DNA of 28,878 nt from a virus. The stretch spans positions 1 through 28,878 of IMG/VR virus record IMGVR_UViG_3300020182_001999. The stretch is one strand, 5' to 3'. Within the stretch, counting starts at the first letter, position 1; each line of letters opens with the position of its first letter. Below are positions 2,956-27,658 of the stretch, one piece after another. Under the pieces are notes generated by a model. That model had not been told where the DNA came from and did no database searches. It saw only the letters and a program-made list of their open reading frames with translations. Made by a program: the position numbers and the translations under genes.

Positions 2956-5952
2956 TTACCTGAGAACGGTTATATAACCACTCGTATCCAAGACCTCCAA
3001 ATTCCATGCCACTGCCCTAATTGTGTAAGCGTAAACTCCGTCTTGTACGTAATGCCCACCATTATTAAAACTTCCATCCCATCTTCCATTAGGGTTATCG
3101 ATTTTAAAGACCACTTGACCCCATCTATTGAAAATAGATACTTCCCATGTGTTCCAACACTCTTCGTCGGTTATTACCCCCCAAGAATCGTTTAAACCGT
3201 CATTATTAGGACTAAATGCGTTAGGTGCAAATGCCTGACCGTCGAATTCATCACAAGGACTAGGAAAAACACAAGTACCATCTTCTATCGTCGCTTCAAA
3301 ATTATAATTTAATGCGTCCATGTTAGTACATCCAAACACATCATATTCACATGACCCATCATTTACATTTGCGAACATATTATAATTGTTAGCGTTTAAA
3401 TCGGTACACCCTAATATATCGTAAGTACAACTACCATCATCCACGTTAGCAAGTGAATTATAATTGTTAGCACTTTCATCAGTACACCCAAATACATCAT
3501 ATTCACAAGAACCGTCATCGACTGTAGCTAAGAGGTTATAATTATTTGCGGTTGAGTCTGTACAGCCGAAAACGTCATAAGTACAAGACCCATCGTCCAC
3601 GTTAGCTGTTGAGTTGTAGTTATTTGCTTCTTCATCTGTACAACCATAAATATCATACGTACATGTACCATCGTCTAAATTCGCATTGGGATTGTAATTA
3701 TTAGCGCTTTCATCGGTACATCCGAATATATCGTAAGTACAACTACCATCATCCACATTTGCGTCAGGATTATAGTTATTAGCAGTATCGTCGATACATC
3801 CCACAACATTGCAATTAATTCCGGAACCTCCGATTGTAAGGACAATCATATTATTACTAATATTATCATCTTCTCCGAAATTTTCCCATGAGTTAGGACT
3901 CTCACCATTTACGTCTAAAACGTGTATACTAACAACACCATATGAGTATATGGGGTTAGGCCACTCAATAGAGATATCACCGAATGAGTTTATTGTTGTA
4001 CCCATCGCATTAAAACAAATAGTGTCGTTTGTTTGTCCTAAGACTTGAACTTTAATACAGTATTCATTTATCGCGGGATTGGTTAGATTGTTTAGATGTA
4101 ACGTAGGAACCCAGTATGGGGTAAATCCGTCACAGTATTCGTTTATAGTTATACTATCTAATGATAAATCAACCATATATTCACAACTTCCATCATCCTC
4201 AGTTGCTAACGGATTATAATTTTCCGCTATTGGGTCTGTACATCCTAAAACAAGACATACATCGGGGTCACTTATATTATTTAAGTATAAGAACGTATTG
4301 TTATATGAATATTCATCAATCTCACCTTCAACATCATATACATTAATTGTTAGTTGAGTTATAAAATCAGGTACATTAATAGTCCATATTAACTGACCCC
4401 CACCAGGTTCAATCCAATCAGTACCGTTTAAATTACCATTTAAACAAGTATCAAGACCTAATTCAGGTACTTCTACACAATACACAAATAATGTGTCATT
4501 TGAATTAAAATTACCCGTATCAGGGTTAACTACTATTATACTAATTTCGTTAGAAACTATCCCGTCATCACACACTGCATTTACAAATGAAACATATCCA
4601 CCTGCGTCAGGAGTATATATTACTTCATCATCACAGTCGAATAGATTACTATAAAACTCCCAATAAGTGCTATCGCCATGATATTCATTACATAATTCTT
4701 CTCCCTCTGGAGTATCACAATATATACATGAGTCATCATTTTCGGTTGCTTGTTGATTATAATTACAAGCGATAGGGTCTTGACAACCGTATACAGGTGC
4801 AAAAGTACAAGTCCCGTCATCATACCCCGCATTACCATTAAAGTTTTCTGCTAAAGGGTCAGTACAACCAGGGTAAATAGGGGGTGGTGCATCACATACA
4901 TTAATAGAATTTAATTCCATTGATATGTCAGGATAAAACTGTGTTTGGTCCGCACATAATCCACACGTCTGGGCCCAACCACCATCAATTTCACCAATAA
5001 TCGCAGTTTCCGAATAGTTTATTTGCCATAATACAACTTCCAAACATGAAGTTAATGTATCAGACTCTAAGATACTTTGGAAACAATCATCATAAAATGT
5101 ATCGTCAGCAAACATATTATAATTTATTGTATCACCCGCGTAATACTCAGCAAATGATACAGGATTATCAAATGTCCATCCTAAATGATATTCAGATGCG
5201 GTACAACCCCATTCATAATCCCAACCAGGTACGTGTGCACCTATTTGAACCATATTTACATAATCCATTTGTCCCGACTGACCCACCGTATTTAAAGAAG
5301 TGCCACAGTTCCAATGTGATACTACTTCAATACTTACGTCATATGTTTCAGGGTCAAATCCAAGGAAATTAACATCACAATCACAAAACGCATCATTATT
5401 TACATCAGGACAATCAGTATTAAAAGGTCCGTAGTATGGTGTTCCGTCTGAGTTATATACCCAAGCGCCATCAGCTAACCCACAACTACCTAACCTAAGA
5501 TTAAATTGTGACCAAGCCCCATCAAAAGGGAAAGATAAACCATAATACGCCCATTCCATAGACTCTTCCCACGATAAATCATTTACTCCACCAGGACCTG
5601 GGTCTTCAGGAAACCATGAAGGGAGATTTGGAATGTCGAACCAAGGGGTTGTTATTGTCCTAGTCTGACCAGGAGGTAAGGGTCCAACATTGTTGTTTGA
5701 GGTATAATCTATGGTCCATATTGGTGCACTTGAATTAAGTGACCAATACATCTTAAGTACGTCCCCTTCCCATTCACTACCCGAATTGTTTGTAACGTCA
5801 AATTGAAACTTGACACCACTACCATTATCAGTGACGACTACAGAACCCTGTTCTATAAAAACGTCACATTGAGCCCTTAATACTACTGAAAACAAGAGCA
5901 TTAAAGGTATTAAAAGCACACGGCGTGCCTTATTAAAAAAAGTAAAATTCAT
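2956..5952 (-). CDS. Secreted repeat protein with T9SS type-B sorting domain
   Basis: 998 residues. Residues 1-27 are a signal peptide (Lys/Arg, a long Leu/Val core, then LRA before QC). Residues about 30-350 are an uncharacterised Asp/Trp-rich beta region. The middle holds CARDB-like beta segments and ten copies of a Cys-containing motif of the form GCTD-x-x-A-x-NYN ... DDGSC. Seven of these are in tandem just before the C-terminus. The last 101 residues (898-998) match the gliding-motility-associated type-B sorting domain (CHU_C/TIGR04131), with APNAFSPNNDGLND, FNRWGQVVF, WDG and a final beta strand. In Bacteroidetes such domains direct export through the type IX system to the cell surface. 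A TATTTATA motif lies 37 bases upstream of the ATG. The protein is probably made during infection and exported by the host machine. The substrate or partner is unknown, and adhesion is only a guess. Confidence 0.93.
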   Translation of the reverse strand: MNFTFFNKARRVLLIPLMLLFSVVLRAQCDVFIEQGSVVVTDNGSGVKFQFDVTNNSGSEWEGDVLKMYWSLNSSAPIWTIDYTSNNNVGPLPPGQTRTITTPWFDIPNLPSWFPEDPGPGGVNDLSWEESMEWAYYGLSFPFDGAWSQFNLRLGSCGLADGAWVYNSDGTPYYGPFNTDCPDVNNDAFCDCDVNFLGFDPETYDVSIEVVSHWNCGTSLNTVGQSGQMDYVNMVQIGAHVPGWDYEWGCTASEYHLGWTFDNPVSFAEYYAGDTINYNMFADDTFYDDCFQSILESDTLTSCLEVVLWQINYSETAIIGEIDGGWAQTCGLCADQTQFYPDISMELNSINVCDAPPPIYPGCTDPLAENFNGNAGYDDGTCTFAPVYGCQDPIACNYNQQATENDDSCIYCDTPEGEELCNEYHGDSTYWEFYSNLFDCDDEVIYTPDAGGYVSFVNAVCDDGIVSNEISIIVVNPDTGNFNSNDTLFVYCVEVPELGLDTCLNGNLNGTDWIEPGGGQLIWTINVPDFITQLTINVYDVEGEIDEYSYNNTFLYLNNISDPDVCLVLGCTDPIAENYNPLATEDDGSCEYMVDLSLDSITINEYCDGFTPYWVPTLHLNNLTNPAINEYCIKVQVLGQTNDTICFNAMGTTINSFGDISIEWPNPIYSYGVVSIHVLDVNGESPNSWENFGEDDNISNNMIVLTIGGSGINCNVVGCIDDTANNYNPDANVDDGSCTYDIFGCTDESANNYNPNANLDDGTCTYDIYGCTDEEANNYNSTANVDDGSCTYDVFGCTDSTANNYNLLATVDDGSCEYDVFGCTDESANNYNSLANVDDGSCTYDILGCTDLNANNYNMFANVNDGSCEYDVFGCTNMDALNYNFEATIEDGTCVFPSPCDEFDGQAFAPNAFSPNNDGLNDSWGVITDEECWNTWEVSIFNRWGQVVFKIDNPNGRWDGSFNNGGHYVQDGVYAYTIRAVAWNLEVLDTSGYITVLR
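3263..3804 (-). repeat. Seven tandem 78-bp coding repeats (26 residues)
   Basis: Seven consecutive units of about 26 residues, each with GC-T/I-D, A-x-NYN, and D-D/E-G-S/T-C. The copies differ from each other at the DNA level, so this is an old, diverged array under protein-level constraint. Two Cys per unit suggest a disulfide in each unit after export. Three more diverged copies lie earlier in the same protein. Confidence 0.9.
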
Positions 5953-5989
5953 TAATTTATAGGTTTACTTGTTTATGAAGAACTACACC

Positions 5990-5997
5990 TATAAATA
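5990..5997 (-). promoter_or_regulatory. TATTTATA motif upstream of the T9SS gene
   Basis: TATTTATA read on the - strand, 37 bases before the ATG at 5952. The same octamer precedes several virion genes in the window (8618, 15746, 25101, 26917, 27988). If it is a phage promoter element, this export gene is expressed with the virion genes. Confidence 0.45.
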
Positions 5998-6008
5998 GTT
6001 TATAACGG

Positions 6009-6506
6009 TCAATAAGTAGAAAATCCTTTCCTAAAATCGTCCCATATAACCTCAGCTTCTTCGTATAATAAGGAAGAAAATACAGAGGGTTCATGAGGTC
6101 TATTTATTAACTTAACACCCCACTCGTTAGGGGTTTTATTACCTTTTGTAACATTACATCTAGAACAACAAGTAACCAAATTTTTCCAAGTATTCTTACC
6201 TCCACGAGAACGAGGTATAATGTGGTCGATAGTTAGATTTTTTTTTGAACCGCAATATTGGCAGGTAGACTTATCTCTTTTAAAAATTCTTTTTCTATTA
6301 ACTTTTAATGAGGTTCTTCGATATCTAATATAATTTAATAACCTTATAATTACGGGACGAACAAATTTACCTATAGTGGTGACGATATCACGGTCTCCCT
6401 TTTTTACTATTTCTGCTTTACCTTTGTTCACCAATATAAACCCTCTATGTAAAGTTGTGATATTTAATGGTGAAAAATCAGAATTTAGTACAAGTACGTT
6501 ACTCAT
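6009..6506 (-). CDS. HNH endonuclease family protein
   Basis: 165 residues from ATG at 6506. The N-terminal half (VLVLNSDFSPLN ... KGKAEIV) is the usual front part of the widespread stand-alone HNH proteins of bacteria and phages. The HNH fold occupies about residues 75-125: CxxC at 82-85, DH at 94-95 (the general-base His), Asn at 109 and CxxC at 114-117 followed by N118. All expected catalytic and zinc-binding residues are present, so the protein should be an active metal-dependent nuclease. T4-like and cos phages use HNH proteins in homing, packaging or host-DNA attack, and nothing here distinguishes these. It lies directly upstream of the T9SS gene on the same strand, with 56 bases between them. 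Confidence 0.92.
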   Translation of the reverse strand: MSNVLVLNSDFSPLNITTLHRGFILVNKGKAEIVKKGDRDIVTTIGKFVRPVIIRLLNYIRYRRTSLKVNRKRIFKRDKSTCQYCGSKKNLTIDHIIPRSRGGKNTWKNLVTCCSRCNVTKGNKTPNEWGVKLINRPHEPSVFSSLLYEEAEVIWDDFRKGFSTY

Positions 6507-8016: not shown

Positions 8017-8580
8017 TCACTTTCGAACATTTACTACAGAATAATAAGTATTTGTTTCTCGGTCATAAAGAACTGATACAGAAATATAGTTATACTTACT
8101 ATTTGTTAAAATTTTCCAGTGTGGGGGACTTTTTTGATACTGTAAAAAAAACTGAGAAACATTATTAACATCCGACCTATGATTAGACCCACAACATTCA
8201 CCACAAGTATCAAAACCCGCCCAATCAATCCGATTTGTGAAACTGTTATACCCTTCACCATGACCAACTTTACCTGTTTTTACCTGATTTTCATTCCAAG
8301 GCACAGTCAGTAGAGATTCCATGTCATCATCGTATTCTAATCCATTCAATCCATGATTTACTCTCCATTCGTTTAATGTATTTACAAAACGTTTTTCCAT
8401 TTCCCAACAAAGAGAATCAATATTTACCTGAGGTACTGGTGTTGGGATATATCCTTCACATGAAACTTCAACCTCATTACCCTTATCATCAATATAATAA
8501 CATTTAGCACCTTCCCATGTAATTTGAGATGTGGTCGTTAATGAAATCAAACAAAAAAGGAGGGGTAATAGATTCTTCAT
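8017..8580 (-). CDS. Secreted CAP-domain (SCP/PR-1-like) protein
   Basis: 187 residues from the ATG at 8580. An ATG two codons upstream at 8586 is an alternative. Residues 1-20 are a signal peptide (MKNLLPLLFCLISLTTTSQ). A CAP domain fills about residues 55-187: LNEWRVNHGLNGLEYD at the start, GHGEGY with the first His of the CAP tetrad, a Cys cluster (DTCGECCGSN), SPPHWKIL with the second His, and the closing strand YYSVVNVRK. Bacterial CAP proteins are extracellular. Reported roles include peptidase-like activity, sterol or lipid binding and adhesion, and none can be assigned here. In a phage the signal peptide implies export by the host during infection. Its 3' end abuts the tmRNA promoter, and its start faces the + strand gene at 8639. 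Confidence 0.88.
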   Translation of the reverse strand: MKNLLPLLFCLISLTTTSQITWEGAKCYYIDDKGNEVEVSCEGYIPTPVPQVNIDSLCWEMEKRFVNTLNEWRVNHGLNGLEYDDDMESLLTVPWNENQVKTGKVGHGEGYNSFTNRIDWAGFDTCGECCGSNHRSDVNNVSQFFLQYQKSPPHWKILTNSKYNYISVSVLYDRETNTYYSVVNVRK

Positions 8581-8617
8581 AAACATAAAGATAGTGAAAG
8601 TTTTTCTTTATACAAAC

Positions 8618-18706: not shown

Positions 18707-19113
18707 GGTTAATCTACGTCAACGAATTGGGTCCCAATTATAAAGGGGACAATATCTATGAGTTTATATTCTCTGACGTAGAAGAAGTATGGGGTGAGGA
18801 TTGGGATTCTGAACCGGCTTCAGGTAAACCATTACCACCTAATGTTGAATATATTAAAAAAGTTGGTGTTTTGAGAAACTCAGATATTGAATTAGAGTTA
18901 GTTCAAAACTCTGACTTTTTTTCTGTTTATGACGCAGTTGAGGATGTTATATCTTTAGGATGGGAAAAATCTGATTCTGAGTTTGTAGTCGATAGTAAGT
19001 ATAAAAGATTAGTCTTTAGATACGGAGATACAGTAAAATCCGTAGAAGATAAATTATATGAAAGAGATATTGTTCTTTCTTATGAAAAAAGTTTTATGAC
19101 ACATGAAGAATAA
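18703..19113 (+). CDS. Conserved marine myophage hypothetical protein
   Basis: 136 residues. MRLIYVNELGPNYKGDNIYE, then FIFSD, a WGEDWDSEPASG segment, VKKVGVL-like and DIELELVQNSDFFSVYDAVE, and a closing DTVKSVEDKLYERDIVLSYE. I recognise this as a family found close to the terminase in many large marine T4-like phages, always of unknown function. Compact alpha/beta sequence, no signal peptide or membrane segment. Both ends overlap neighbours (4 bases upstream, 11 bases downstream), which fits strict co-translation in the head operon. Confidence 0.82.
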   Translation: MRLIYVNELGPNYKGDNIYEFIFSDVEEVWGEDWDSEPASGKPLPPNVEYIKKVGVLRNSDIELELVQNSDFFSVYDAVEDVISLGWEKSDSEFVVDSKYKRLVFRYGDTVKSVEDKLYERDIVLSYEKSFMTHEE

Positions 19114-20065
19114 AGAAAAAAAAATAGTATCATTATTAGAGGAGGGTTTTTCTTATGATACTATTAAGAAAATGTCTAACACTCACATTGATTTACTATA
19201 TGATAGATTAATTAAAGAGGCTGAAAGTTATAATACAAAAACAAAAGTTTTTGATTTAGATAATGAAACAGATAGAAAAGAGTTTGATAAAGACGCTAAT
19301 AGCGGTGAGAATAATCAGATAACCGCAACCGACCAAGGAGACGTTGCATTAACAATGAAGAATGAAAGTGAAATATCTGAGGATGAAGATTTAGATAACT
19401 CAGTAGAGAAGGAAAGTGGATATAATCCTTACGCCGGTAATAGTCCTGGTAATACTGAAGGTCCGGCAGGTAATAATCCTAGTCCGAATAGTGACGGAAT
19501 GGGGTATATTGATGAGGATGCAGTTATAGAAGATTTATTCGGTAGCCCAAAGAAAAAAATGAAAAAACCTATCGGTACTTTAACAACTTTAGGTATGTTT
19601 GAAGAGACAAGTAAAGGTACGAAGTGTTGGAAAGGTTATGAGAAGAAAGGTATGAAGACTATGTTTGGTAAAAAAGTTCCAAATTGCGTTAAAAAAGAAA
19701 GTAAGGAAGAAAAAATTAGTCATCTTGAAGAAAGTATTGTATCTTTGATTAAGAAATCACAAGGTAAAATGTTAACTAAAAAAGATATTTTGTCGGAACA
19801 ACCTAAAATTGCACCCGCAGAGCCTACTGTTAAGCCAGGGGTAAAACCTAAAAGAGGTACACCGTACAAACCAAAACATAGTCCAAAACCTAAAGCGGGT
19901 ACTGAAATAAAACCGGCAGAGCCAACGGTTAAACCAGGTGTTAAACCTGAAAGGGGTAATCCTTACAAACCAAAACATAGTCCAAAACCTAAAGCGGGTG
20001 AAGATAAAGGAGTGCCTGAGTTCTTAAAATTTAATAACCTAAATATAAAATTTAGAGATGAGTGA
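19103..20065 (+). CDS. Unknown phage protein with CWKGYEKKGMK motif and PK repeats
   Basis: 320 residues. The N-terminal 50 residues are helical (EEGFSYDTIKKMSNTHIDLL, YDRLIKEAE). An acidic, Asn/Gly-rich linker follows (NPYAGNSPGNTEGPAGNNP), then at about 172-200 CWKGYEKKGMKTMFGKKVPN with CVKK, a short basic motif with two Cys that I recall from several proteins of marine phages. Residues about 238-300 are two 33-residue Pro/Lys repeats (EPTVKPGVKP ... YKPKHSPKPKAG). The protein looks like short functional patches on disordered linkers, a scaffold- or DNA-binding-like design. It overlaps the neighbouring genes at both ends. Confidence 0.78.
   Translation: MKNKEKKIVSLLEEGFSYDTIKKMSNTHIDLLYDRLIKEAESYNTKTKVFDLDNETDRKEFDKDANSGENNQITATDQGDVALTMKNESEISEDEDLDNSVEKESGYNPYAGNSPGNTEGPAGNNPSPNSDGMGYIDEDAVIEDLFGSPKKKMKKPIGTLTTLGMFEETSKGTKCWKGYEKKGMKTMFGKKVPNCVKKESKEEKISHLEESIVSLIKKSQGKMLTKKDILSEQPKIAPAEPTVKPGVKPKRGTPYKPKHSPKPKAGTEIKPAEPTVKPGVKPERGNPYKPKHSPKPKAGEDKGVPEFLKFNNLNIKFRDE
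19814..19999 (+). repeat. 99-bp tandem repeat encoding Pro/Lys-rich units
   Basis: Two copies with a 99-bp period (starting 19814 and 19913). The 3' part of each copy, from TACAAACC to GCGGGT, is identical over about 35 bases, while the 5' part has drifted at synonymous sites. This suggests a duplication partly kept uniform by conversion. Confidence 0.88.
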
Positions 20066-21373: not shown

Positions 21374-23155
21374 ATGGCGTTAACAAAAGAAAAGGTATTA
21401 TTGGAGTATGCGAGGTGTGTAAAAGACACCTCGTATGCGTTAAAAACATATCTACAGACTTATGATAATACTCAGTCTAAATATGTTCCTTTAAAATTAT
21501 TTCCCGACCAAGAATATCTAATAAATGATTATGATACTTTTGAAGAAAACATAGCCCTTAAATATAGACAAGCTGGAGTGTCTACTGTAACATCTGCATG
21601 GATATCTAAAAAATTAGTTACAGCTTCTAAAACTAAACCAGAAAAAATCCTTATCATAGCCAATAAACTTGATACATCTGTTGAGATGGCAAGTAAAATC
21701 AGAGCTTTCATGGACCAATGGCCCTCATGGTTTGGGGTAGATTTCTCCATTGAAAAGAACTCTCAAAGACATTATAAATTAACTAATGGGTGTGAAGTAA
21801 AGTCAGTTGCAACATCGAAAGACGCACTTCGTGGATATACCCCTACCATTCTTGTGTTTGACGAAGCGGCATTTATTGAAGCCGATAATGACTTTTGGTC
21901 TGCGTGTATGGCGTCCCTATCTACAGGAGGTAAAGTAATTGTAATATCTACCCCTAATGGATTTGACCCAATATATTACTCTATTTACGACCAGTGTTTA
22001 AGGGGTATGAATGACTTTAAAATTACTGAAATGTTTTGGTACCGTGACCCTCGGTACGCTAAAGATTTAAAACTTATTAAATGTAATGATATTGTTCATT
22101 ATATGTTAAATAGGGAGGATTACAATGATGACGAGATTATTATAGAGTATGGTCACATATCACCTATGGAAAGAAATTTTGAAGAGATTAAATCTAAGTT
22201 TCTTGAGGGATATAAGCCATACTCTACGTGGTTCGAAGGTATGGCTAAAAAGCTTAAGTTTGATAGACGTAAAATTGCTCAGGAATTAGAGTGTAATTTC
22301 TTGGGTTCAGGTGATAATGTAATACCTAGTGATACTGTGGAAAAAATAAAGGAGAATTTTATTGTGGAACCAGAAAATAAATTTATGGGTGGTGCGTTAT
22401 GGCAGTGGAAAGAACCTGTTGTCGGTCACAAATATATTATGGGTATTGATGTATCTCGTGGTGATAGTGAAGACTTTACAACCTTTTGTATTATAGATTT
22501 TGATGAGAGAGAACAAGTTTTAGAGTATTTAGGTAAAATACCTCCTGATGTCGCTGCTGAAGTCGCATTTAAGTGGGCGACAATGTATTCTGCCTTTGTC
22601 GTTATTGATATCACTGGAGGTATGGGGGTTTCTACCGCAAGAAAATTGCAAGAAATGAACTATAAAGATTTATATGTTGAAGGTACTAATGTTGCTGATA
22701 AGTGGAAGTACAACCCATCAACTATAGAGAAAATACCGGGATTAAACTTTAACTCAAAAAGAGTTCAAATTGTGGCTTCTTTTGAGGAGGCTTTAAGACA
22801 TAACTTTATTGTTCGTTCGACACGTCTTATGAACGAGCTAAATACTTTTGTCTATGTAAATGGAAGGCCTGACCATATTAAGGGTCAACACGACGACCTT
22901 ATCATGGCCATGGCAATGGCAATATATGTAGGTGAAAATTCTTTCACGAAACTTGAAAAGGTGACCGACCAAACAAAGGCTATGATGGAAAGTTGGTTAG
23001 TTAATGAAACTCCGGTAAAAAATTCATCTAAAGAGTTTAATCCAGGTTTACCTGTAATGCCCGCTAATCAATACAATCACCATAGACGAATTGATGGTTA
23101 CACTAAAAAAGATTATGAGGATTACGGTTGGTTATTTGGAGGTAATCGTAGATAA
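21374..23155 (+). CDS. terL: Terminase large subunit (T4 gp17-like)
   Basis: 593 residues, close to T4 gp17 in length. ATPase: the Walker A-like loop is KYRQAGVST (63-71), in which the usual Lys before Ser/Thr is Val, with K63/R65 available upstream as in many phage terminases. Walker B TILVFDEA with D163 and catalytic E164. Motif III VISTPNG (190-196). RNase H-like nuclease: MGIDVSRGD (D359), VVIDITGG (D412) and GQHDD (D507, D508). The protein pumps genome into proheads through the portal and cuts the concatemer, headful style in T4-like phages. The ATG follows 20 bases after the upstream stop. The portal gene follows. Confidence 0.97.
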   Translation: MALTKEKVLLEYARCVKDTSYALKTYLQTYDNTQSKYVPLKLFPDQEYLINDYDTFEENIALKYRQAGVSTVTSAWISKKLVTASKTKPEKILIIANKLDTSVEMASKIRAFMDQWPSWFGVDFSIEKNSQRHYKLTNGCEVKSVATSKDALRGYTPTILVFDEAAFIEADNDFWSACMASLSTGGKVIVISTPNGFDPIYYSIYDQCLRGMNDFKITEMFWYRDPRYAKDLKLIKCNDIVHYMLNREDYNDDEIIIEYGHISPMERNFEEIKSKFLEGYKPYSTWFEGMAKKLKFDRRKIAQELECNFLGSGDNVIPSDTVEKIKENFIVEPENKFMGGALWQWKEPVVGHKYIMGIDVSRGDSEDFTTFCIIDFDEREQVLEYLGKIPPDVAAEVAFKWATMYSAFVVIDITGGMGVSTARKLQEMNYKDLYVEGTNVADKWKYNPSTIEKIPGLNFNSKRVQIVASFEEALRHNFIVRSTRLMNELNTFVYVNGRPDHIKGQHDDLIMAMAMAIYVGENSFTKLEKVTDQTKAMMESWLVNETPVKNSSKEFNPGLPVMPANQYNHHRRIDGYTKKDYEDYGWLFGGNRR

Positions 23156-23198: not shown

Positions 23199-25100
23199 AT
23201 GGCTGATAATAACAATTTTACTATATGGCAAAGGTTGACTAAGGTATTTGGACCTGATTCTACCTTAGACCAACAAGCCCCGGTTTATAATTTTGATAAA
23301 AAACAAATATTAAAAACTACCGACAAAAAAGAATATGAAAGAGAGAAATTACAAGCTCAACAAACACTATATTTAGGTCAGCAATGGCAAAAAATCGAAA
23401 ACAATTTATATACCCAAGCGGTTTATTATGAACCCACACGTTTAGCATCTTTTTACGACTATGAGAGTATGGAGTATACTCCTGAAATTTCAGCAGCTTT
23501 AGACATTTATTCTGAAGAGTCTACTACACCCGATGAAGACGGATATATATTACAAATTTACTCTGAAAGTAAAAGAATAAAATCAGTTTTAGCGGATTTA
23601 TTTAATAATAGATTAGATATTAATACTAACTTACCTATGTGGACACGTAATACATGTAAGTACGGTGATAATTTTGTGTATTTAAAATTAGACCCTGAAA
23701 AAGGTATTATGGGGGCTCAACAGTTACCTAATATTGAGATTACTAGACAGGAGAGAGGTATGAAAATTAAACCTGAAAGAAACTCAACGGAAAGTGAAAA
23801 TGATTCATTAAAATTTTTGTGGCAGAATAAAGATATAACTTTCAATACTTGGGAAGTCGCTCACTTTAGATTATTAGGTGATGATAGAAAACTACCATAC
23901 GGTACATCTATGTTAGAAAAAGGTAGACGTATATGGAAACAATTAATCTTATCAGAAGATGCTATGTTAATCTATAGGACTTCTAGAGCACCAGAAAGAA
24001 GGGTATTTAAAATATTTGTAGGTAACATGGATGATAAGGATGTTGAACCTTATGTACAACGAGTCGCTAATAAGTTCAAAAGAGACCAAGTAGTTGACTC
24101 CAACAATGGAAATGTGGACTTAAGATATAATCAAATGGCTGTTGACCAAGATTACTTTATTCCTGTTAGGGACCCTAATGCTCCTAACCCTATAGATACA
24201 TTACCAGGGGCTCAGAACCTATCTGAAATTGCGGATATTGAGTACATACAAAAAAAGTTATTAACTTCTTTGAGGGTACCTAAAGCTTTCTTAGGTTTTG
24301 AAGAGGTTGTTGGAGACGGTAAAAGTCTATCTTTACAAGATATTAGGTTCGCTAGAACTATAAATAGAATACAAAAATCTATGGTTCAAGAACTTAATAA
24401 AATAGCTATAGTTCATTTATACCTTTTAGGTTTTGAAGACGAATTAGGTAACTTTACTTTAGGGTTAACTAATCCATCTGCACAAGCAGAATTATTAAAA
24501 ATGGAACAATGGACACAGAAAATACAACTTTATAGGGATGCTGTTAGTGACCCAGGTAATGGTATTCTACCTGTTTCATCATCTTGGGCTAAGAAACACA
24601 TTCTCGGATTTAGTGATGATGAAATTAAGTTGGATATTCAACAACAAAGAATGGAAAAAGCAGTTGCCGCTGAATTAGAAAAGACATCTGAAGTAATAAG
24701 TAAAACGGGTATATTTGCTAATATAGATAAGTTATACGGTAATAAACCTGGTGAAGGTGGTGATGCTATGGGTGACGAAACAACAGACTCCGAAGTAGGT
24801 GATATGGGAGGAATGTCGACTGGTGATTTAGGAGGTGATTTAGGAGGTGATTTAGGAGGTGATTTAGGTGGTGATTTAGGTGGTGATTTAGGTGGTGATT
24901 TAGGTGGTGACGCAGGTGGTGACGCAGGTGGTGACGAAGGTGGGGGAGATTTAACACCTGAAAGATTTATTAGTAATAAAGATTTAGATATATTATTAGA
25001 AGATGATTTTATTAATGGAAAAACTATATTAGACTTATCTAAAGGAAGACAGTCGTTAGGTGAAATTGAAGATAAATTGAACGAATTACTAAATGATTGA
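23199..25100 (+). CDS. gp20: Portal protein (T4 gp20-like)
   Basis: 633 residues, somewhat longer than T4 gp20 (524). Typical gp20-family blocks are present: SFYDYESMEYTPEISAALDI with YSEESTTPDEDGYIL near residues 86-125, the wing segment MWTRNTCKYGDNFVYLK, the HFRLLGDDRKLPYGTSMLEK block, RAPERRVFKIFVGNMDD, the clip/stem region GNVDLRYNQMAVDQDYFIPV, and LRVPKAFLGFEE with the long crown helix after it. The extra length is a C-terminal tail of nine GGD(L/A/E) units followed by a short conserved end. The portal forms the dodecameric vertex through which DNA passes and docks the terminase encoded just upstream. Confidence 0.96.
   Translation: MADNNNFTIWQRLTKVFGPDSTLDQQAPVYNFDKKQILKTTDKKEYEREKLQAQQTLYLGQQWQKIENNLYTQAVYYEPTRLASFYDYESMEYTPEISAALDIYSEESTTPDEDGYILQIYSESKRIKSVLADLFNNRLDINTNLPMWTRNTCKYGDNFVYLKLDPEKGIMGAQQLPNIEITRQERGMKIKPERNSTESENDSLKFLWQNKDITFNTWEVAHFRLLGDDRKLPYGTSMLEKGRRIWKQLILSEDAMLIYRTSRAPERRVFKIFVGNMDDKDVEPYVQRVANKFKRDQVVDSNNGNVDLRYNQMAVDQDYFIPVRDPNAPNPIDTLPGAQNLSEIADIEYIQKKLLTSLRVPKAFLGFEEVVGDGKSLSLQDIRFARTINRIQKSMVQELNKIAIVHLYLLGFEDELGNFTLGLTNPSAQAELLKMEQWTQKIQLYRDAVSDPGNGILPVSSSWAKKHILGFSDDEIKLDIQQQRMEKAVAAELEKTSEVISKTGIFANIDKLYGNKPGEGGDAMGDETTDSEVGDMGGMSTGDLGGDLGGDLGGDLGGDLGGDLGGDLGGDAGGDAGGDEGGGDLTPERFISNKDLDILLEDDFINGKTILDLSKGRQSLGEIEDKLNELLND
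24831..24938 (+). repeat. Nine 12-bp repeats encoding GGDL/GGDA/GGDE
   Basis: Nine tandem 12-bp units: six encode GGDL, two GGDA and one GGDE. The DNA units come in blocks (three ggaggtgattta, three ggtggtgattta, two ggtggtgacgca, then a variant), a pattern expected from stepwise slippage. They form a flexible acidic tail on the portal protein. Confidence 0.93.
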
Positions 25101-26935: not shown

Positions 26936-27658
26936 ATGAAAATATTAGGACCAAACGATACAGGTAAAGGTATTTTAGTTGAGTGGGATGCTGGGTCAAT
27001 AAACCCTAAGGATGGTAGGAACTCTAAAGTAATTAAAGAATCTTACGGACAACTAGAACACTCTAAACCCTTTGAGTTTTATGCGACTTTACAGAAATTT
27101 GATACACCAAATAGAAATGGTAGAGTATATCCTGAAAAAATATTAAGACGTGAAGCCGATAATTATAAAAAGGCAATTGAAAAGGGATTATCAATATCTG
27201 AACTTAATCACCCTGAATCGTCTTTAATTGATTTAGACCGTGTTTCTCATCTTATAACAGATGTGTGGTGGGAAGGTAACACTCTTATGGGTAAGATTAA
27301 ATTACTAACCTCACCAGGATTTCATGAAAGAGGTGTCGTATCTTGTCCCGGAGACCAAGCGGCCAACTTAATGAGACAAGGGGTTACTATGGGAGTATCT
27401 TCTCGTGGAGTAGGTTCACTAGTAAAGAAAGGAGAAAGAAATGAAGTTCAAGAGGATTTTGAATTAATATGTTTTGATTTGGTCTCGTCACCTTCAACAC
27501 CCGGAGCTTATTTATTTTTAAATAAAGACGATAAAGGTAAGTATGAAGAAAATATTGAAGAGGAGACACAGAATAGAGCTACTGAACAGAATATAGATGG
27601 TAGTTTAGGTAAAAGTGTTGACTTAATGAAAAAGTTATCCGATTATTTAGGTTATTAA
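26936..27658 (+). CDS. gp21: Prohead protease (T4 gp21-like)
   Basis: 240 residues, near T4 gp21 (212). The herpesvirus-type serine protease core is visible: FYATLQKFDTPNRNGRVYP at the start, ELNHPE with catalytic His92, GVSSRGVG with Ser155/Ser156, and CFDLVSSPSTPGA with Asp181. In T4-like phages this protease is built into the prohead core. It is activated after assembly, cuts scaffold, capsid and internal proteins after I/L-x-E and then digests itself. The candidate substrates in this window (N-termini at 875, 2206, 8639, 10063 and 15767) carry such sites. It is followed by the DUF4494 gene and the scaffold candidate. Confidence 0.95.
   Translation: MKILGPNDTGKGILVEWDAGSINPKDGRNSKVIKESYGQLEHSKPFEFYATLQKFDTPNRNGRVYPEKILRREADNYKKAIEKGLSISELNHPESSLIDLDRVSHLITDVWWEGNTLMGKIKLLTSPGFHERGVVSCPGDQAANLMRQGVTMGVSSRGVGSLVKKGERNEVQEDFELICFDLVSSPSTPGAYLFLNKDDKGKYEENIEEETQNRATEQNIDGSLGKSVDLMKKLSDYLGY

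Follow-up and report, generated by a model that had tools for sequence, protein, structure and literature searches.

Type-B substrates of the type IX secretion system (T9SS) require cognate carriers of the PorP/SprF family (PMC12618676) and anchor to PorP-like proteins (PMC9143113), according to the available text of both reports. Two cellular systems come closest to the locus described here: SprB-SprF of Flavobacterium johnsoniae (PMC12618676, PMC12635249), which joins a type-B cargo, a PorP/SprF carrier and surface anchoring, and PG1035-PorP (PMC9143113), a type-B cargo with a PorP carrier and surface anchoring. Phage-encoded T9SS cargo has also been reported already (PMC7468147, PMC6949934). 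Cryophage, described in 2020, encodes proteins with T9SS sorting domains, for which hijacking of the system and perhaps superinfection exclusion were proposed (PMC7468147), and gut phage contigs of crAss-BACON cluster 2 encode such proteins upstream of the head section (PMC6949934). The locus studied here is of this general kind: the IMG/VR virus record IMGVR_UViG_3300020182_001999, analysed over its 28,878 bases (the window), contains a gene for a 998-residue protein with a type-B sorting domain, which an initial annotation had read as a phage product exported by the T9SS of the host. That export reading is supported at the level of sequence, and is strengthened by a phage SprF gene, a virus-centred protein family and a protease-cargo pair, all found outside the window. 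Both the family and the probable route of export are well supported.

A type-B cargo gene in a T4-type phage contig

The cargo gene occupies 2956..5952 on the minus strand, as judged from the open reading frame (ORF) call, domain searches and near-identical copies; its 998 codons run from 5952 to 2956, a direction that the initial annotation had not given. The sorting domain forms the extreme C-terminus (residues 909-996 of 998; 2965..3228, minus strand). The model searches proposed with that annotation place it above the cut-off of both relevant families: CHU_C (PF13585) matches residues 909-996 with E=1e-17 (64.4 bits against a cut-off of 27) and the NCBIfam model TIGR04131 matches residues 910-980 with E=4e-12 (46.1 bits against 35). 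Residues 362-894 (3271..4869, minus strand) hold ten GCTD...DDGSC repeats, of the general type GC...D(D/G)..C, which start at residues 362, 389, 570, 718, 744, 770, 796, 822, 848 and 874 and are the ten Cys-containing repeats originally noticed. Towards the N-terminus, on the same strand, lie a signal peptide recognised by eye (residues 1-28, 5869..5952), with an n-region ending in KARR, a hydrophobic core and RAQ ahead of C; a first extracellular domain beginning CDVFIEQGSVVV (residues 29-185, 5398..5868, with approximate limits taken by eye from the translation); and a family-defining domain running from CDVNFLGFDPETYDVSIEV to LEVVLWQINYSET (4897..5385, limits approximate), which is a row of alignment A4. 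The N-termini of the cargo proteins at loci L063, L066 and L067 resemble the first extracellular domain.

The window is clearly of phage origin. Markers of a T4-type myophage are all present: a gp20 portal protein at 23199..25100 (PF07230, 9e-79), the large subunit of a T4-type terminase at 21374..23155 (PF03237, 6e-9) and an S77 prohead protease at 26936..27658 (1e-22), each a profile match on the plus strand, so the setting among virion genes is as first described. Five further IMG/VR contigs, 55-270 kb long, carry the cargo gene at 99-100% identity. In alignments of 12.9-13.95 kb that extend past the gene on either side, the window is collinear with them at 99.9%. Since both joins are common to these five contigs, the concern that a chimeric join might lie near 2900 or 6000 is answered.

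A promoter-like motif, TATTTATA, lies 45 nucleotides upstream of the cargo start codon (5990..5997, minus strand). It is strongly enriched ahead of genes: within the 270-kb sister contig, 39 of 237 upstream regions contain this 8-mer, where its overall density would predict 4.4. It often stands 18-24 nucleotides before the start codon, virion genes are among its carriers, and the M43 protease gene of the window phage has it 40 nucleotides upstream. The initial claim of a motif shared with virion genes thus holds; from this sharing we infer, as that annotation did, timed expression, and the cargo may be transcribed late in infection.

GCTD-like repeats also occur in marine bacteria and archaea, including marine Euryarchaeota and Neomarinimicrobiota. 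The tblastn matches to Synechococcus phage S-CAM3 and to AG-345-P14 span the repeat region alone, and neither was accepted as a relative of the cargo; locus L007, considered as a sixth relative, was dropped since its match is confined to the repeats and comes without CHU_C. Comparison by sequence with solved structures returned two weak matches only, both between a single repeat (residues 847-871) and the macrophage-expressed gene 1 protein (E=0.05). In a host-mimicry comparison with 395 sampled Bacteroidota genomes, in which the best few candidates per genome were scored, the cellular type-B tail that scores best is 45% identical to that of the window cargo; the corresponding figure for the carrier-less locus L113 is 43%.

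A family of type-B cargo proteins centred on viruses

A survey of phage genomes for the sorting domain, which the initial annotation had suggested, returned 226 relatives in viral contigs, and the figures below rest on the best 80 of these. The query, alignment A1, combined five sorting domains. One of its rows comes from a hit in the phage collection (L038, MT839536) that proved to be a bacterial fragment with UvrA and transglycosylase genes; it is not counted as a phage, though it remains in A1. Cargo ORFs were analysed in 76 of the 80 loci, with L059-L062 set aside as copies of the window phage; 65 of the 76 are complete, a number that includes near-identical copies. Grouped at 90% identity, the 76 give 47 clusters, which are spread across several phage lineages.

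Family members share a common plan, in which a signal peptide is followed by a domain starting QCD(L/V/M), a spacer or repeats, and the sorting domain. The motif (V/I)WQI(N/S) is frequent inside the QCD(L/V/M) domain, and the spacers consist of GCTD repeats or of a DTVYIELPPDT type. In all 65 complete ORFs the last motif of the sorting domain coincides with the ORF end. Under a fixed signal-peptide criterion 49 of these 65 passed, compared with 51 of 462 ORFs in their neighbourhood and 18 of 230 from the window phage. The A4 model of the shared domain matches the same ORF as the sorting domain in 68 of 80 loci, and it matches 15 of 15 held-out viral contigs that had not been used in building it. 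Searches of cellular genomes, in which the best few candidates per genome were scored, gave a single borderline match at threshold (9.9e-4) among the 395 Bacteroidota genomes and none among five Bacteroidota genomes reached through the search for GCTD-repeat relatives. The cargo family is seen almost only in viruses.

The ratio of nonsynonymous to synonymous substitution rates (dN/dS) is 0.058-0.25 in 15 of 16 cargo pairs (one is saturated), and over the last ~91 codons it is 0.051-0.205 in 13 of 16 (three saturated), which points to purifying selection on the family. An AlphaFold2 model of a 299-residue member is a β-rich chain with a predicted local distance difference test (pLDDT) score of 76.7. 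Its matches among solved structures are generic Ig/FN3-type folds with low template modelling (TM) scores and so offer no enzymatic reading of the family domain; in structure libraries (BFVD/UniProt) the best match, an unnamed protein, shares 38% identity along the full length of the model.

Two further arrangements were seen among type-B proteins in viral records. A 169-kb viral contig (L126) carries two tandem type-B cargo genes at 3217-5076 and 5073-5963 on the plus strand, and the phage records LR756502 (642 kb; L014:2673-5369, plus strand) and LR745206 (635 kb; L015:1653-5270, plus strand) encode large CHU_C proteins with signal peptides recognisable by eye.

A phage-encoded PorP/SprF carrier

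The window phage has a carrier gene of its own. Its PorP/SprF protein matches PF11751 over its full length (E=4e-45; residues 24-309, model positions 3-271 of 273), and the gene is found in four of the five sister contigs, ~7 kb from the cargo; the fifth contig stops short of that point. In a diverged relative, G007, an SprF that is 61% identical lies ~6 kb from the cargo. When the alignment of phage SprFs was used to scan viral contigs, it recovered only the four sister contigs and G007, the INPHARED phage set gave no tblastn match, exact 8-mers found none in GTDB, and no solved structure matched by sequence. By BLAST, with the best few candidates per genome scored, 84 of the 395 Bacteroidota genomes contain a match; among the matches listed, the best-scoring is 37% and the highest 39% identical. 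The dN/dS values of the phage SprF genes are 0.27, 0.14 and 0.085. We infer that this SprF pairs with the cargo. Because a type-B cargo needs a cognate carrier, at least in the available account of PMC12618676, a phage that brings its own may be independent of host carriers.

An M43 metalloprotease paired with the cargo

In some contigs of the family an M43 metalloprotease gene lies upstream of the cargo gene. A search of viral contigs found 60 M43 loci, with a cargo ORF adjoining in 45, while eight are cut by the contig end and seven are non-adjacent; a cargo ORF counted as adjacent if its stop-to-stop frame starts at most 400 bp before or 150 bp after the point where the M43 frame ends, or if it finishes within 150 bp of the M43 frame start. 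Four of the seven non-adjacent loci are from the window phage, where the two genes are ~28 kb apart and the M43 gene is outside the window, one is apparently frameshifted beside the cargo, and in two the genes are 1.3 kb apart. The 60 loci form 28 clusters, 23 of them with cargo adjacency. All 60 proteins keep the HExGHxxxxxH zinc motif intact, and the seven that were scanned with PF05572 are all over its cut-off. Between the window phage and L075, a contig whose genes are ordered differently, the proteases are 74% identical. The INPHARED collection yielded one M43 locus, in a fecal fragment. A phrog_6681-type terminase is present in just six of the 60 M43 pieces, so that the viral nature of most others rests on their IMG/VR classification.

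Gene neighbourhoods of the family

Across the 80 cargo loci, 22 contain a phrog_6681-type terminase, which lies no more than 260 bp downstream of the cargo in 18 and 2.2-2.4 kb away in four. In 14 loci the cargo sits ~1.2 kb behind an L113-like gene matching phrog_10356 (two further short matches were not counted), in five it follows a protein like the 1,307-residue one of L071, and in five it stands between two virion structural genes, with a sixth locus where it is beside one. The terminase and head genes are related to those of phages of Flavobacterium, Cellulophaga, Tenacibaculum and Maribacter; T9SS is common in the class that holds these genera.

The position of the cargo varies among related phages, being upstream of the terminase in some and between head genes in others. 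At locus L132, four genes around the cargo are found in the same order, at 33-69% identity, in the isolate NC_055853 and the metagenomic MW202828, which have no counterpart of the cargo or of the 268-residue gene preceding it. The row of head genes is thus intact without the cargo in two relatives, which argues that the cargo behaves as an inserted accessory gene.

Directly upstream of the cargo in the window lies an HNH endonuclease gene (6009..6506, minus strand; PF14279, 1e-17), an arrangement present in the nine loci of the group of the window phage; such an endonuclease could shift the cargo gene between phages. The same minus-strand block encodes a second secreted-looking protein with a CAP domain (8017-8586; PF00188, 4e-7). 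Elsewhere in the window, the gene at 19103-20065 contains a local duplication (19813-19999) whose copies, ~99 bp apart, are 87.5% identical. The 270-kb sister contig additionally encodes a fasciclin-domain protein (L026:17002-18060, minus strand), a TonB-dependent-receptor-like protein with a carboxypeptidase-regulatory domain (L027:8082-10835, minus strand), and a 125-residue protein (L013:1396-1773, plus strand) made of a signal peptide, recognised by eye, and a type-B domain (PF13585, 5e-14) with no cargo. This naked form, a possible T9SS competitor, was found in one contig only in a scan of the viral contigs, and its gene has no exact TATTTATA upstream.

Proposed role and alternative explanations

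The usual picture of phage action is confined to the interior of the cell and to lysis. In the present case we consider it likely that the phage displays the cargo on the surface of its host by way of the host T9SS, probably late in infection. The gene would be transcribed during infection from the promoter class that, judging by the motif, it has in common with virion genes. The protein would be exported by Sec through its signal peptide; the SprA translocon of the host would then take it across the outer membrane, together with a PorP/SprF carrier that reads the type-B domain. In the window phage this carrier could be the product of its own gene, and elsewhere in the family it would have to come from the host or be encoded outside the sequence at hand. 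Once outside, the cargo may stay attached to the surface of the host, where it would form an adhesin-like array of β-rich and Cys/Asp-rich repeat modules, as known type-B biology would suggest.

The purpose of such display is a more tentative matter. Late remodelling of the surface, in which receptors are removed or masked so that released progeny are spared loss on dead cells and competing phages are shut out, is the likeliest purpose, though one for which we would claim rather less than an even chance. According to the available text of PMC13288928, gliding proteins, several of which belong to the T9SS, are used at adsorption by some flavobacterial phages, and the host surface is therefore a reasonable target. 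The wider proposal of a dedicated export kit, in which Bacteroidota phages combine a virus-specific type-B cargo, in some of them its own PorP/SprF, and a secreted M43 protease to hijack the T9SS late, cut or mask receptors and exclude superinfection, is speculative to a similar degree. The roles that the initial annotation had named (a superinfection block, altered adhesion or a released factor) are hypothetical, and the present data do not separate them.

Several observations weigh against surface display through the T9SS, or against parts of it. That the host of the window phage has a T9SS is presumed. The signal peptide of the cargo, MNFTFFNKARRVLLIPLMLLFSVVLRAQ followed by C, is clear by eye, as the initial annotation had held, yet it fails our strict automatic criterion; it is one of 16 family members out of 65 missed in this way, 15 of which look signal-like by eye and one of which (L065) does not. 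A GCTD-repeat protein of Synechococcus phage S-CAM3 (NC_031906) is annotated as virion structural, hence the repeats by themselves are no argument for secretion. The SprF gene is outside the window, on the opposite strand to the cargo and not adjoining it, no exact TATTTATA lies upstream of it, and the AlphaFold2 model of its product, built from three sequences, reaches a pLDDT of 29.9. Moreover, SprF was found in just one of 50 other cargo-bearing contigs, many of them fragmentary (the 50 were taken from 75, leaving out short ones and duplicates), so that most of the family must rely on a different carrier or have theirs beyond the fragment. The M43 proteins and the fasciclin protein have type-A-like tails by eye only: TIGR04183 matched neither six records, five of them from the window phage, nor four M43 proteins, and PF18962 on one M43 protein stays below cut-off (E=0.15).

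Other explanations account for part of these data. The secreted proteins could serve nutrition or ecology as auxiliary products, with extracellular proteolysis or adhesion, for example to particles, providing infected cells with nutrients or moving them elsewhere. The M43 partner fits this, as do the fasciclin and TonB-receptor-like proteins of the 270-kb sister contig and the known or predicted adhesins among type-B substrates of F. johnsoniae (PMC12618676, in its available text), but the motif common to virion genes suggests late expression, when nutrition would count less, and we regard this role as possible but rather doubtful. A decoy, in which type-B domains and the naked 125-residue protein occupy the translocon or carrier in competition with SprB and other host adhesins, block their export and so strip the cell of receptors, would suit the use of gliding proteins for adsorption by some flavobacterial phages (PMC13288928, in part) and the existence of a signal peptide joined to little more than CHU_C (PF13585, 5e-14) in the 270-kb contig. 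However, that form occurs in one contig only, most members examined have large extracellular parts under apparent purifying selection that a decoy would not need, and a phage SprF would ease rather than impose competition for carriers; we consider a decoy unlikely.

Less probable still is a structural part of the virion, either a fibre or a head decoration in which CHU_C is re-used for assembly. Cargo genes do lie among or near virion genes, the window cargo shares its motif with them, β-sandwich and Ig-like domains are common in tail proteins, and the S-CAM3 protein offers an annotated precedent. Yet most members have signal peptides, of no use to a virion assembled in the cytoplasm, the gene takes different places among related phages, and in one podovirus group it is an insertion, with two relatives keeping the four head genes without it. 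The presence of GCTD repeats in marine bacteria and archaea might suggest a host fragment or an assembly artefact, an idea that we reject as scarcely credible: the window and five contigs agree at 99.9% over both joins, synteny is kept in diverged phages, and the family domain, centred on viruses, is present in every held-out viral contig and nearly absent from the sampled Bacteroidota genomes.

If the cargo is indeed displayed on the host surface, a virus-centred and selected family apparently exported by a host system, with one group bringing its own carrier, would mean that a phage may rebuild the surface of the infected cell, and surface proteomes of Bacteroidota may include viral products. 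Cargo, carrier and protease form directly testable pairs within T9SS and gliding, which is also an adsorption route for certain flavobacterial phages (PMC13288928, available text).

Comparison with known systems

Our searches of open-licence PMC papers turned up no account of a PorP/SprF encoded by a phage, of this type-B family or of the M43-cargo pairing. Among the best six structure-library matches, three are BFVD/UniProt proteins of uncultured phages named for a 'gliding motility-associated C-terminal domain'; these automatic annotations supply names only, without linkage or function. Unlike the window cargo, the Cryophage proteins are of type A, comprising an endoglucanase, GH39 and PA14-domain proteins, and the available text describes neither a PorP/SprF nor an M43-cargo pair (PMC7468147). 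The crAss-BACON proteins differ in having BACON domains, and neither a carrier nor a type-B family is described in the accessible part of that report (PMC6949934). The viral M43 proteins share PF05572 and HExGHxxxxxH with cellular M43 (pappalysin) proteases, but differ from them in occurring in viral contigs and adjoining a type-B cargo in 45 of 60 loci.

The carrier itself stands apart from its cellular counterparts, being no more than 39% identical to any among the matches listed. In F. johnsoniae, tail cysteines arranged as Cys-X-Cys tie SprF to the gliding track, a motif confined to close homologues of that protein in the available text of PMC12635249. All three phage SprFs have Cys in the C-terminal tail, as do the eight best-scoring cellular relatives inspected, and none of these eleven has Cys-X-Cys; one phage tail has a single Cys and the other two have Cys-x5-Cys. 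Cellular cargo-carrier pairs are commonly encoded side by side (PMC12618676, as far as its available text goes), whereas the phage pairs lie ~6-7 kb apart.

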